Source: a virus. Taken from it: 36,831 bases of DNA. Below the pieces are notes generated by a model, which had not been told where the DNA came from, searched no databases, and saw only the letters and a program-made list of their open reading frames with translations. The DNA lies in the IMG/VR virus record IMGVR_UViG_3300029264_000275, positions 1 through 36,831 of that record; one strand, written 5' to 3'. Positions 2,563-18,605 of the stretch are shown piece after piece. Each line of letters starts with the position of its first letter. The first letter of the stretch is position 1. The position numbers and the translations under genes were made by a program.

Positions 2563-3726
2563 TTATGCCTTGAATTTAGCCAGGCTAAACCCGTCTAAAT
2601 CTACTTCCATCCACTTAATGTCTTTGTGCCTGGCGCTATAATTATCGGTCTGTTTAGCCGTCGAATGGCCGGCCAGATGTTGAGGCAAACAACCCTGTTT
2701 TTCATGCTCATGTATTGCCAACGCGCGCCCCTGGTGAAAGCCTGGACGCTTGCCCATTGGCAAGTCGTTATAGAAGCCCGTCACGTCGTCGCGTAACCGC
2801 TTAAACTCCTTGGTTAAATAGCCTTTATCAATGTAGCTAAAGTGTTGTCCAGACGCCTTTTTTTGAGCAGTTACCTTTTCCGGCTTGCGGTGGATTAAGT
2901 AGGGAGAAATAATATTAACTCGCCCATGGCTAATTGGCCGGTCTAAGACATCGGCCAGTTCTGGCGTTATTTTAATGGCAAGATAACTGGTGTCATATTT
3001 GTGGGTTTTTTGCTGTACCACATATAATACGCCGTCTTTTATATTGTCTTTTTCCATGTTGCAAATGTCACCCCGGCGCTGAGTGGTGAGCATACAAATA
3101 TCCATTGCTTTTTGCATCCAGGGTTCAGCCGCGTTATAGATTGCGCTCCAGCCGTCCTTTGTGTGGCGCTCCACTTCTGGTTCTTTGCCAATTTTAAGGC
3201 AGGGCGACGCTGGGTTGGTGTCTAATTCCCCTTTGGTCCGGCCATAATCAATAGTAACCAGGAGCACTTTTAAAGTCTTGTCTCGCTCTCTAGCGTGCCC
3301 GGCGTTTTCTTCCGGGTCGTAAATACCATCTAAAAATTCAGATATGGCTAGGGTGGTTAATTGGCGACAGCCCCAGCCGTCAAAGTAGGCTTTAATCTTT
3401 TTATGAGCGCCGCGAATTTCAGCAATAGTGGATTTTGCCAATAGCTTTTTGCCGGTCCCGTTTGATTTATACGCCAAGTAGGCGTCGCATAATGCCGCCA
3501 GGCTGGTGGACGGGTGCAATACTGAATCAATTATCGAGGTGGACCCCACCAGCTTATCGTTGAGCGTTTTGGCCGCTGCAATCGCGCTTTGTTTATCCGA
3601 CCCCATGCCGTGAAATTTCTTGGTTATGGGGTGCTTATAGCGGTAGGACAAACTCCCTTTGCCGTTACTGGTTTGGTAAAGGTTAACGGGCAGCCGTTGG
3701 GTGGCTTTAGATTCGCGGTATCGCAT
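2563..3726 (-). CDS. int: Lambda-type tyrosine integrase
   Basis: This site-specific recombinase joins attP to a tRNA-Arg attB and, with Xis, excises the prophage. The 387-residue protein aligns with lambda Int throughout. The N-terminal arm-binding domain (about 1-60, RLPVNLYQTSNGKGSLSYRY) is followed by a core-binding domain (about 75-180) and the catalytic domain. All active-site residues are visible: Arg217 in TTQRRGD, Lys240 in QQKTH, His331 and Arg334 in HQGR, His354 in GHS and Tyr363 in DNYS. The gene is the last of the leftward operon and points toward attP, the usual layout. The divergence from lambda sits mainly in the linker. The start ATG lies just downstream of the xis stop. Confidence 0.95.
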   Translation of the reverse strand: MRYRESKATQRLPVNLYQTSNGKGSLSYRYKHPITKKFHGMGSDKQSAIAAAKTLNDKLVGSTSIIDSVLHPSTSLAALCDAYLAYKSNGTGKKLLAKSTIAEIRGAHKKIKAYFDGWGCRQLTTLAISEFLDGIYDPEENAGHARERDKTLKVLLVTIDYGRTKGELDTNPASPCLKIGKEPEVERHTKDGWSAIYNAAEPWMQKAMDICMLTTQRRGDICNMEKDNIKDGVLYVVQQKTHKYDTSYLAIKITPELADVLDRPISHGRVNIISPYLIHRKPEKVTAQKKASGQHFSYIDKGYLTKEFKRLRDDVTGFYNDLPMGKRPGFHQGRALAIHEHEKQGCLPQHLAGHSTAKQTDNYSARHKDIKWMEVDLDGFSLAKFKA

Positions 3727-15146: not shown

Positions 15147-15662
15147 ATGATGCAATTTAACAGGACCCAAATCGGAGAGGCATTTAGCGTTAATTTGACC
15201 ACAGTGGATAAATGGCGGCGAAGTGGGTGCCCGGCCACAAAAGATGGCCAAAACGTAATGTATACCGTGCGCGAGGTTAGCGATTGGTTGAGGTCTAGGG
15301 ATATGGCAAGCAGCGGCACCTTGGACCTGGGCCAAGAGCGCGCGAAGTTAACCAAGTTACAAGCACAAAAAGCCACCCTAGAACTGGAAGTGGCAAAAGG
15401 TAATTTAATCCCTATGGAATTGGTGGTTGAAACCTGGCAGGGACACATCGGAAATTGTCGGGCAAAGCTACTGGCCATGCCAGCCAAGGCCGCAGCGCAG
15501 ACAATCGGGATGGATGAATACCTAGAGAGTGAGCAATTTTTAACAGAACTAATTAATGAAGCACTGGACGAATTAAATAATGACGGATTACCTGAGAAAC
15601 ACCTTAACCGCCTTGAGACTATCGCAGAAGATTTGGAAGTCGCCGCCGAAGCTAACAGTTAG
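15147..15662 (+). CDS. terS: Terminase small subunit, Nu1-like
   Basis: This subunit recognises phage DNA and recruits the packaging motor. The 171-residue protein has an N-terminal winged-helix domain (FNRTQIGEAFSVNLTTVDKW) followed by a long helix with ERAKLTKLQAQKATLELEVA. These features match lambda Nu1. AAGGGCAAG precedes the ATG. A gap of 57 bases upstream is where a cos site would be expected, but none is clearly identifiable. Its end overlaps the TerL start by 83 bases in another frame. Confidence 0.85.
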   Translation: MMQFNRTQIGEAFSVNLTTVDKWRRSGCPATKDGQNVMYTVREVSDWLRSRDMASSGTLDLGQERAKLTKLQAQKATLELEVAKGNLIPMELVVETWQGHIGNCRAKLLAMPAKAAAQTIGMDEYLESEQFLTELINEALDELNNDGLPEKHLNRLETIAEDLEVAAEANS

Positions 15663-17418
15663 CGAATGGGCAGACCATAACCGTAGGCTATCCGCAGAAT
15701 CTAGCGCGGAGCCAGGGCGGTGGCGTACCAGCCGGGCAGAATATCAGCGTGAAATTATGGACACCGTGGCAGATGCCACTATTGAAACGATTGTAATTAT
15801 GTCGTCGGCACAGGTGGGTAAAACTGAGATCATCGGAAATATTGTTGGCTACTTTATAGATAAAGACCCAGCCCCCATTATGGTGATAATGCCCACCGTC
15901 GATATGGCCAAGACCTGGAGCCATGACCGCTTGGCGCCAATGGTGAGAGATACGCCGGCGCTAAAGTCTTTGATAGCAGATAACAAAAGCCGCGCGTCGA
16001 GCAATACGCTATTCCACAAATCTTTCCCTGGTGGCCATATCACCATGGCTGGGGCCAATTCACCCACCGGCCTAGCGTCGCGTCCAATACGAATTGTATG
16101 TTGCGACGAAGTTAGCCGATACCCGCAAAGTGCAGGGGCCGAGGGCGACCCGGTAAACTTGATTAGAAAACGAACCACGACTTTTCATAACCGTAAAATA
16201 ATATTAACAAGCACCCCGACACTAAAAGGCGCTTGCAGAATTGAACAAGAATTTAGCATATCGGACCGGCGACACTACCACGTACCGTGCCCGCATTGTG
16301 AACATGAGCAAAGGTTAAAATGGGCCAACGTCCAATGGCCAGAAGGAAAGCCAAGCGAGGCCGTAATGGTGTGTAACGAGTGCGGCGGTGTGATTGAGGA
16401 TAAGCACAAACCCAAAATGGTTAGAAACGGCAAGTGGATTGCAGAACTACCAGGAGGGAAAATTGCCGGGTTTCATTTGAACGAGCTTTATTCACCTTGG
16501 CGAACCTTTGCCAATGTAGCTGAGGATTTTGTTGAAGCCAAAAAGAACCCTGAGACATTAAAGACGTGGGTTAACACCTCCCTCGGCGAAACCTGGGAAG
16601 AAGCTGGCGAAAGTTTGAACGAGCATTTATTAGCAGAGCGCAAAGAAAATTACGCAATCGACGCGATACCGCTGGAAGTGCTTTTAATAACAGCCGGCGC
16701 AGACATTCAAAAGGACCGCATCGAGGCTTCAATTATCGGGTGGGGTTTAGATCAAGAATGTTGGGTATTGGATCATGTGGTGTTATGGGGCGACCCAACA
16801 CAGCAACAAGTGTGGCGCGAATTAGACGAGCTTTTAACGAAAACTTATGACGGCCACCGGATTGCAGGAAGTGCAATCGACAGCGGATATTTAACAGAAT
16901 ACGTGTATCAATTCACAAAGCCCAGGGCAAGCCGCCGAGTATTTGCAATCAAAGGCCAGGCGGGAATGGGAAAGCCTCTAACGACCAGGCCAAAGCCCGT
17001 GGGGCGCACTAGGACGCCAATGTACACGGTTGGAGTGGATACGGCCAAACGCACGATATACAGCCGTTTACGCCTTACCAGTGGGGAAGGGTATATACAC
17101 TTTGGGGTTGACCTTGATGACGAATATTTCTTGCAGCTAACAGCCGAAAAAATGGTGACTAAATACCGGCGCGGGTTTCCCGTCATGGAGTTTGTCAAAA
17201 CAAGAGATAGAAACGAGGCGCTTGATTGCCTGGCGTATGCTTATGCAGCTTTAGATAATTTAAATGTGAAGCTAGCCGCCCTAGCTGCAAAGCGCAAGGC
17301 TAAACAAAACCCGGTATCAGTAGAGCCAGAAGAGGAAAACCCATTGGAGCCACCACCAATAGTGAAAAAAGCAAGAAAAACGAGGTCTAGAAAAGGGGGT
17401 TTTGCTACCAGGTATTAA
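15580..17418 (+). CDS. terL: Terminase large subunit, lambda gpA family
   Basis: This packaging ATPase/nuclease cuts concatemers and pumps DNA into the prohead. The 612-residue protein carries a Walker A variant SAQVGKT (76-82), Walker B CCDE (174-177), and coupling motif TSTPT (210-214). A CPHC/CNEC zinc-binding pair (237-240, 265-268) is inserted, typical of the gpA family. The C-terminal nuclease domain shows Asp375 in AGADIQKDR, Asp434 in AIDSGY, and NEALDCLAYAY near the end. gpA-type terminases usually cut at cos. The end is Lys/Arg-rich. The stop overlaps the stop of a convergent minus-strand gene. Confidence 0.93.
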   Translation: MTDYLRNTLTALRLSQKIWKSPPKLTVSEWADHNRRLSAESSAEPGRWRTSRAEYQREIMDTVADATIETIVIMSSAQVGKTEIIGNIVGYFIDKDPAPIMVIMPTVDMAKTWSHDRLAPMVRDTPALKSLIADNKSRASSNTLFHKSFPGGHITMAGANSPTGLASRPIRIVCCDEVSRYPQSAGAEGDPVNLIRKRTTTFHNRKIILTSTPTLKGACRIEQEFSISDRRHYHVPCPHCEHEQRLKWANVQWPEGKPSEAVMVCNECGGVIEDKHKPKMVRNGKWIAELPGGKIAGFHLNELYSPWRTFANVAEDFVEAKKNPETLKTWVNTSLGETWEEAGESLNEHLLAERKENYAIDAIPLEVLLITAGADIQKDRIEASIIGWGLDQECWVLDHVVLWGDPTQQQVWRELDELLTKTYDGHRIAGSAIDSGYLTEYVYQFTKPRASRRVFAIKGQAGMGKPLTTRPKPVGRTRTPMYTVGVDTAKRTIYSRLRLTSGEGYIHFGVDLDDEYFLQLTAEKMVTKYRRGFPVMEFVKTRDRNEALDCLAYAYAALDNLNVKLAALAAKRKAKQNPVSVEPEEENPLEPPPIVKKARKTRSRKGGFATRY

Positions 17419-17585
17419 CTGGCAGCGTTTAACGTATCGGATACAAAGGCGGCCAATGATTTATTATTGGCGGCTTTTTCCCAGGCGGCTTTTTCTTGTG
17501 GCGTGCAACGAATTTGCAAGCGAACAGATTTGGTAATGTCTTTCGTGGCGTTTTTCTGGCCGGCCATTCCATGTGGTTTTTTCAT
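17415..17585 (-). CDS. Ribbon-helix-helix (CopG/Arc-like) regulator of a moron cassette
   Basis: The 56-residue protein has a basic N-terminus (MKKPHGMAGQKNATKDITKS), then VRLQIRCTPQEKAAWEKAA and KSLAAFVSDTLNAAS. This is the strand-helix-helix pattern of RHH repressors, with the beta strand KSVRLQIRCT. Such proteins bind inverted repeats at their own promoters. It is the second gene on the minus strand, within an otherwise rightward block. CAGGGGA precedes the start, partly overlapping a GGGGC/GCCCC hairpin in the leader. It could be an Aca-type autorepressor or an antitoxin for the upstream gene. Confidence 0.75.
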   Translation of the reverse strand: MKKPHGMAGQKNATKDITKSVRLQIRCTPQEKAAWEKAANNKSLAAFVSDTLNAAS

Positions 17586-17618
17586 TTTATTCCCCTGGGG
17601 CCGTAGCCCCTATTATTG

Positions 17619-17858
17619 TTATTTATTTAAAACGATTGCTTTGGCTCTCTTATAGTCTTCCATTAGTTCTTCGGCCTGAAAGTTATTCCAGACTGCGGAA
17701 AGGTGCATCCAACCCTCAGTCTCACAACCACTTGCAATGTCTACGTAGTCGTGTTTTGCCATTTCTTTAGAAACAGCAAACATATTTTCAAAGTCACCTG
17801 CTTTATTCATGTTTGCTTGAATAATAAAATTATCGTTGTTGCAAGTTATAACTCTCAT
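17619..17858 (-). CDS. Acidic 79-residue orphan protein; candidate anti-defence (Acr-like) moron gene
   Basis: I do not recognise any family. The protein starts MRVITCNNDNFIIQANMNKA, is net acidic (12 Asp/Glu against 8 Lys/Arg), and has an internal helix-rich second half (WMHLSAVWNNFQAEELMEDY). No membrane segment or HTH is seen. AGGGAA precedes the ATG by 5 bases, and the cassette has its own promoter at 17900-17928. It is followed by a small RHH gene and inserted between terminase and head genes. That layout, small acidic protein plus small regulator, is typical of anti-CRISPR loci. A toxin-antitoxin pair or an exclusion factor is also possible. Confidence 0.65.
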   Translation of the reverse strand: MRVITCNNDNFIIQANMNKAGDFENMFAVSKEMAKHDYVDIASGCETEGWMHLSAVWNNFQAEELMEDYKRAKAIVLNK

Positions 17859-17894
17859 AATATTCCCTGGTTGTTTTTGTGTTTCGATTCAATA

Positions 17895-17928
17895 ACTATA
17901 TTGTACTGACAAAAAGAATATAGTGCAA
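17895..17928 (-). promoter_or_regulatory. Moron promoter overlapped by an 8-bp inverted repeat
   Basis: On the minus strand TTGCAC (17923-17928) and TACAAT (17900-17905) are 17 bases apart. ACTATATT (17895-17902) and AATATAGT (17917-17924) form an exact 8-bp inverted repeat across the -10 and the spacer. A protein bound there would block transcription. The RHH protein encoded two genes downstream is the natural candidate. Confidence 0.6.
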
Positions 17929-17962
17929 CACCTTTTAAAAAAAACATCCTCTTTTTTTCGTG

Positions 17963-18011
17963 TTGACTTTAAACGCCTTATATACTATGTGTAGCGCCTT
18001 AGTATAAGGCG
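17963..18011 (+). promoter_or_regulatory. Rightward promoter with palindromic operator before the head genes
   Basis: TTGACT (17963-17968) is a 5 of 6 match. The -10 is either TATGTG at 17-bp spacing or the better TATACT at short spacing. CGCCTTA-GTA-TAAGGCG (17995-18011) is a perfect palindrome, and CGCCTTA also occurs at 17974-17980 in the spacer. It would restart transcription into the head operon after the inserted cassette. Confidence 0.5.
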
Positions 18012-18020
18012 TTGATTTTA

Positions 18021-18605
18021 ATGGCAAATTTATTTAACCCGGCAAACTATCCAAAGCGCGAACCAATAGCCCTGGCAGTTGGCGACCGTTGGGCGTGGTG
18101 CCGTGACGATTTAACCGACTACCCATCCGGCCTTTATTCACTTCAATACAGTTTCAGGCTCGAAGCTGCTTCATCATCTGAAATTAAAATCATCGCTACA
18201 GCTAACGCGGATAATTTCAAGATCGAAGTACCGGCAGCCATAACATCAGCCTATGTGGCCGGCCCCTATCAGTGGAGCGCCTATATTAGCCGCATTGCTG
18301 ATGGTGAGCGTATCACCATTGATGGTGGCACGTTTGAAGCATTGCCAAACCGCGCAACATCCAGCGCCGACCCCCGAAGTTTTAACCAAAAACAGCGTGA
18401 CGCCTTGCGCCATTTGTCACTAGGCAAAGCAGCAAAGGACGTGGCTAGCTATTCCATAAATGGTCGGAGCATGACCCGGCACTCGCCAGAAGAAATATTA
18501 ACATGGCTAAAGCATTACGAGGCCTTGTGCAAAGTTGAAGAGCGACGCGCGGCCGCTAAAAAGGGTCTAGGGCATTCCGGCATAATAAAAGTGAGATTTT
18601 CATAA
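18021..18605 (+). CDS. Head-tail joining protein, gpW-like C-terminus fused to a beta-rich domain
   Basis: The 194-residue protein has a beta-rich first half (about 1-110, GDRWAWCRDDLTDYPSGLYS) and a helical second half. NQKQRDALRHLSLGKAAKDV, SYSINGRSMTRHSPEEILTW and KHYEAL resemble lambda gpW, which completes the head and forms the joint with the tail. The order terL, this gene, portal equals lambda A-W-B, supporting the call. The extra N-terminal domain is absent from lambda gpW (68 residues). The ATG at 18021 is preferred over a TTG nine bases earlier. The stop overlaps the portal start as TAATG. Confidence 0.65.
   Translation: MANLFNPANYPKREPIALAVGDRWAWCRDDLTDYPSGLYSLQYSFRLEAASSSEIKIIATANADNFKIEVPAAITSAYVAGPYQWSAYISRIADGERITIDGGTFEALPNRATSSADPRSFNQKQRDALRHLSLGKAAKDVASYSINGRSMTRHSPEEILTWLKHYEALCKVEERRAAAKKGLGHSGIIKVRFS

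Follow-up and report, generated by a model that had tools for sequence, protein, structure and literature searches.

Results

Organization of the cassette

The window, i.e. the whole stretch of viral DNA analysed here (36,831 nt, IMG/VR record IMGVR_UViG_3300029264_000275), belongs to a marine phage that encodes an integrase and repressors, and carries two small minus-strand genes between terL and a head-tail joining gene. Both genes (79 and 56 aa) lie where the first-pass annotation placed them. The features of the locus are the following:

15580-17418, plus strand: terL, left neighbour and conserved host locus (Pfam GpA_ATPase/GpA_nuclease, E 1e-97)
17415-17585, minus strand: gene of the 56-aa putative ribbon-helix-helix (RHH)-type regulator, last gene of the cassette, pI 10.0
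17591-17596, minus strand: Shine-Dalgarno AGGGGA of the RHH gene, assigned from sequence, directly 3' of the linker hairpin, an arrangement kept in relatives
17597-17610, minus strand: linker hairpin GGGGC-UACG-GCCCC between the 79-aa and 56-aa genes, sole copy in the window
17619-17858, minus strand: 79-aa cargo gene, an orphan, pI 4.97
17864-17868, minus strand: Shine-Dalgarno AGGGA of the 79-aa gene, assigned from sequence
17895-17924, no strand: inverted repeat ACTATATT-N14-AATATAGT of the first-pass annotation, exact, containing the putative operator, right arm not conserved
17900-17928, minus strand: predicted cassette promoter TTGCAC-N17-TACAAT, found in conserved form at 25 unique loci, which belong to two genomic sites
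17901-17912, minus strand: putative RHH operator TTGT-CAGT-ACAA over the -10 box, conserved in most relatives and co-varying with RHH type
17992-18014, plus strand: leader hairpin of the head-tail joining gene; relatives have a similar one, whether or not they carry the cassette
18021-18605, plus strand: head-tail joining gene, right neighbour (phrog_5774, E 3.6e-23)

The RHH and terL stop codons overlap, tail to tail. The right neighbour also matched the phrog_118 adaptor weakly, and its leader hairpin is strong (z about -1.7). Elsewhere in the window, a tRNA-3'-end-like sequence (GTCGGGGGTTCGAGTCCTCCAGGGCGTGCCA, 2389-2422) between the lysis genes and the integrase (2563-3726) is probably attP.

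Insertion between terL and the head genes

The cassette is absent from five (L071, L074, L075, L076 and L077) of the 15 closest terL relatives (83-100% identity), where the head-tail gene directly follows terL and no minus-strand cassette is found. Because these relatives have an empty site, we consider the cassette an insertion. In L005 and L071, whose flanks are 94-95% identical (1725/1842 in terL, 658/690 downstream), the terL stop is followed by 801 bp and 16 bp, respectively, and both sequences resume at CCAAAGCGCGCTTATATACG, a point that adjoins the cassette promoter, just upstream of it. The insert thus includes its own predicted promoter. These comparisons bear out the earlier description of the cassette as a moron, i.e. 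an insertion with its own conserved promoter between genes that adjoin in relatives. More distant terL relatives (L081, L082, L084, L087, L096, L106, L110 and L127) have other genes inserted in the terL/head gap, which therefore looks like an insertion hotspot.

Distribution of the regulator and exchange of the cargo

A total of 39 viral contigs encode relatives of the 56-aa protein, as does one contig of a MAG (Oceanospirillaceae UBA1126), which is the single indication of the host. There are two main cassette sites, the terL/head gap and, in other phages, the gap between a tyrosine integrase and the lysis genes; none of the integrase-site contigs, which may be fragments, shows the terL of the window. 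All intact terL-site cassettes end with the RHH gene; in some integrase-site cassettes it is not the last. One contig, L002 (3700-4781), joins an integrase, a tmRNA-like 3' end, the cassette and terL, and could be a true hybrid or a misassembly with L035, which comes from the same sample. The distant RHH relatives L064-L066 had neither this cassette nor this promoter.

The first-pass annotation had proposed to compare related phages for swaps at this locus and to search for other small genes next to homologues of the RHH gene. Both comparisons gave positive results: the regulator is fixed (82-93% protein identity across operons with unrelated upstream genes) and the genes upstream of it are exchanged. 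A single RHH gene can be accompanied by as many as five cargo genes, and clustering disclosed about 45 cargo families. The contigs are fragmentary, and the loci are related to each other, so that counts are not independent. These families have few or no database relatives. Several of them occur at both genomic sites, and a 71-aa cargo gene is identical at 213 of 216 nt in L037 (terL site) and L052 (integrase site), where its flanks are unrelated. Since the dN/dS of shared cargo was mostly 0.02-0.28, these seem to be working genes.

Apart from an identical copy in L001, the 79-aa gene has no relative, and it belongs to no family; the AF2 model of its product, obtained without an alignment, was of low confidence (pLDDT 59). 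Its acidity, mentioned in the first-pass annotation, does not discriminate (pI 4.97 versus a median of 5.15 for the late genes of the window phage), and we rejected it as a sign of anti-CRISPR activity or DNA mimicry because the late genes are equally acidic. No cargo protein matched known anti-defence families in the libraries searched, PADLOC yielded no match of substance among the cargo tested, and the only similarities to known families were weak matches to metallopeptidases (SprT, astacin) and DnaJ zinc fingers. The cargo with weak SprT-like and astacin-like matches, in L041 (5115-5771) and L063 (4878-5558), is unusual in small-gene cassettes.

Junctions between cassette genes

A hairpin GGGGC-N4-GCCCC plus a Shine-Dalgarno precedes ORFs in 42 unique contexts (from related loci), and for 31 of these the distance to the ATG is 11-13 nt. 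Either by itself or accompanied by a second stem-loop, this linker connects 22 different gene-family pairs. A second kind of junction, the stop/start overlap GGTGACGCATGA, joins eight family pairs; it is common to unrelated cargo genes in L037, L052, L056 and L060, the proteins of which end in GDA. The hairpin linker was also observed before small orphan genes with no RHH gene detected nearby (L011-L013, L020, L027, L029-L031 and L034). We infer that shared junctions let cargo genes exchange by homologous recombination, and a role of the linker hairpin in translation is equally possible. The shared linkers suggest a route by which cassettes reshuffle.

The 56-aa protein

The first-pass annotation assigned the second gene to the RHH proteins. 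The 56-aa protein gave RHH matches in Pfam (NikA-like, E 0.007; TacA1, E 0.08), but these were below the cutoff, and its AlphaFold (AF2) model (pLDDT 71) has two helices (29-38 and 44-55) placed as expected for the MetJ/Arc fold, but the best Foldseek matches, which were RHH proteins, were not significant (E of at least 2.6). Residues of the predicted strand co-vary with the operator (see below). A helix-turn-helix (HTH) domain was not matched in Pfam, PHROGs or NCBIfam, and a PDB profile search with the RHH family returned nothing significant, AcrIF25 (E 1) being at chance level. On this basis we consider an RHH fold probable. The RHH protein of the window had no match among cultured phages or plasmids, and an integrase-site RHH protein had one weak match (35%) in an uncultured freshwater phage. 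For most site-1 pairs the dN/dS of the gene was about 0.1-0.3, which means purifying selection; two close pairs gave 0.59 and 0.75.

The RHH domain was also found fused to N-terminal extensions in L145 (2398-2766), L052 (5803-6171) and L057 (5800-6177). That of L145 is an F01-type (cargo-type) N-terminus, and those of L052 and L057 are different. These cargo-RHH fusions resemble the dual acr-regulator proteins (PMC9410906).

Promoter and operator

A plain sigma70 scan did not detect the cassette promoter. However, cassettes at both genomic sites begin with TT(G/T)NNN-N16/17-TACAAT, with TTGT-N4-ACAA over the -10 box, and because of this conservation we regard the promoter as supported and as the cassette's own, as previously claimed. 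The putative operator is perfectly palindromic in several relatives (TTGTATATACAA, TTGTACGTACAA). The 8-bp inverted repeat described earlier as crossing the promoter is indeed exact, but by itself it proves little, since dinucleotide shuffling of the region produced at least one perfect 8-bp repeat in 13% of cases, and since most relatives have AATTAGT in place of the right arm. We therefore rejected this repeat as the conserved feature, and TTGT-N4-ACAA becomes the operator candidate. Further copies of the operator in the window were not above chance.

When the operator pattern alone was used as bait against 2.9 million viral contigs, 20 were found, 19 of which were cassette contigs and one a chance match. 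Those 19 comprised 12 already known, three new ones with RHH genes and four ending within 450 bp in the same context. In L022 and L063, hairpin-linker cassettes have a different promoter (TTGACA-N17-TAGGAT) with the palindrome CGTTAAGACTTAACG. The last gene of the L022 cassette is another small one, perhaps RHH-like. There may be a second class of regulator and operator.

Co-variation of regulator and operator

Distances between RHH proteins correlated with those between operators (Mantel r 0.80, 25 unique pairs), a value reached by none of 5000 within-site permutations. Where strand residue 22 is Arg (14 loci), the base preceding TACAAT was always G, and where it is Val (10 loci), always A; these counts come from related loci and are not independent. 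Such a one-residue code is incomplete, because in L045, with Ile at this position, the base is G, as in the Arg loci. Also, L063 has an R-type RHH protein yet the different promoter and palindrome mentioned above, which counts against the pairing of regulator and operator.

L045 was informative in another respect. Compared with its terL-site relatives, its RHH gene is only 57-59% identical and its promoter core 63-66%, whereas the leader (94-100%) and the first cargo gene (92-95%) are conserved; its upstream flank matches that of L037 at 123 of 127 positions, and its operator is 90% identical to that of L054, from the other site. By this comparison, L045 is a natural exchange in which regulator and promoter were both swapped around intervening DNA that kept 92-100% identity. 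The segments flanking the conserved DNA changed together and thus behave as a repressor and its operator should. Given the Mantel correlation, the double swap in L045 and the recovery of cassette contigs (19/20) by the operator bait, we consider it very probable that the 56-aa protein autoregulates this variable accessory cassette.

Discussion

We believe that the most plausible explanation for these results, with a probability of roughly 0.6, is a moron of a temperate phage in which an RHH-autorepressed promoter would drive an early pulse of exchangeable cargo, mainly devoted to counter-defence. On entry of the phage DNA the promoter would be free, and the small cargo gene or genes would be transcribed together with the RHH gene, which comes last. 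The RHH protein would then bind TTGT-N4-ACAA over the -10 box and shut down its own operon, and the outcome would be a burst of cargo early and low levels later, i.e. the logic of acr-aca operons. The cargo slot would be exchanged by recombination at the repeated junctions, whether hairpin-plus-Shine-Dalgarno linkers or short start/stop overlaps. The gene order suggests that late transcription through terL, being antisense to the cassette, could silence it late. It is plausible that the cargo has an anti-defence function, and we infer that the cargo proteins, among them the 79-aa protein, would mainly counter host defences.

The cassette could also serve lysogenic conversion or superinfection exclusion, the cargo guarding the host of the prophage against other phages or altering that host, and the RHH protein keeping expression at a low, safe level. 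The integrase, the repressors and the tRNA-3'-end-like sequence by the integrase of the window phage are consistent with this, as are the second site between integrase and lysis genes, where prophage morons often lie, and the diversity of the cargo, which fits phage-phage warfare too. However, a strong promoter that is shut by its own product would suit a pulse more than steady expression, and the PADLOC result for the cargo also speaks against it; we regard this possibility as rather unlikely.

A type II toxin-antitoxin pair, with the 79-aa protein as toxin and the RHH protein as antitoxin, had been considered the main alternative. A small upstream gene with an RHH partner in one operon, the frequency of RHH antitoxins and the sub-threshold TacA1 match agree with it, but cognate pairs should travel together, and here closely similar regulators lie beside unrelated upstream genes, with several cargo genes per RHH gene in some cassettes and no toxin homology. 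Since toxin and antitoxin are not co-conserved, such a pair is improbable. More improbable still is that the RHH protein is a mobilization or partition factor and the cargo unrelated junk: the NikA-like match and a weak Foldseek match to plasmid ParB point that way, but the RHH protein co-varies with the cassette promoter and not with a transfer or partition site, and the cargo is under purifying selection.

The preferred reading, an autorepressed moron, has several known counterparts. As in the acr-aca operons (Aca1-Aca10; PMC9410906, PMC7648647), variable small genes lie upstream of a fixed DNA-binding regulator in one operon, an inverted repeat (here TTGT-N4-ACAA, in most loci at two sites) is conserved inside the core promoter, candidate clusters are shuffled, with aca5 fixed and acr candidates exchanged (PMC7648647), and some regulators are fused to cargo. 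Unlike them, the regulator looks RHH and not HTH, the cargo has no known Acr and hairpin linkers precede cargo genes. The comparisons give strong support to the architecture behind the first-pass annotation of an Aca-like regulator, including the placement of the putative operator, but the protein falls outside the described bacterial Aca families, all of which are HTH (PMC9410906). The establishment genes of clade II of the pLS20 family, with the RHH repressor Reg (p576; PMC8708921), similarly combine an RHH autorepressor with transient accessory expression on DNA entry, although these are conjugative plasmids with several promoters flanked by operators, and the authors contrasted such plasmid RHH autorepressors with the HTH repressors of phages (PMC8708921). 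In archaeal viruses, a conserved promoter/operator, shared with Aca8, marks many unrelated small early genes and has already served as bait to find anti-defence genes, but there the promoters are archaeal, with one copy per gene, and Aca8 is predicted to be wHTH (PMC11065993). PeSL cassettes of T4-like phages, as they are cited in PMC4503421, likewise tie junction stem-loops to gene shuffling; whereas these have an early promoter and a stem-loop per junction, the linkers here consist of hairpin and Shine-Dalgarno, no promoter was seen in the linker sequences listed, and each cassette has a single promoter. In the literature searched, the coverage of which was incomplete, we found no description of an RHH Aca-like regulator in phages.

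Tentatively, the cassette may represent a plug-in platform of uncultured marine gammaproteobacterial phages, in which small counter-defence genes, open-ended in number, would share one RHH autorepressor and promoter and be swapped singly at standard junctions (linkers of GGGGC-UUCG-GCCCC and a Shine-Dalgarno, and GGTGACGCATGA overlaps). If true, no Aca-like class of RHH type would have preceded it in phages, and it could serve as bait for new anti-defence families by the dozen. The known bacterial Aca families are the main bait for anti-CRISPR discovery, and an RHH regulator whose operator is defined would provide an independent one in phages without a known Aca. Its yield so far is some 45 small uncharacterized families, several of which move between phage lineages under purifying selection, and the co-variation of regulator and operator makes the proposed repression directly testable.
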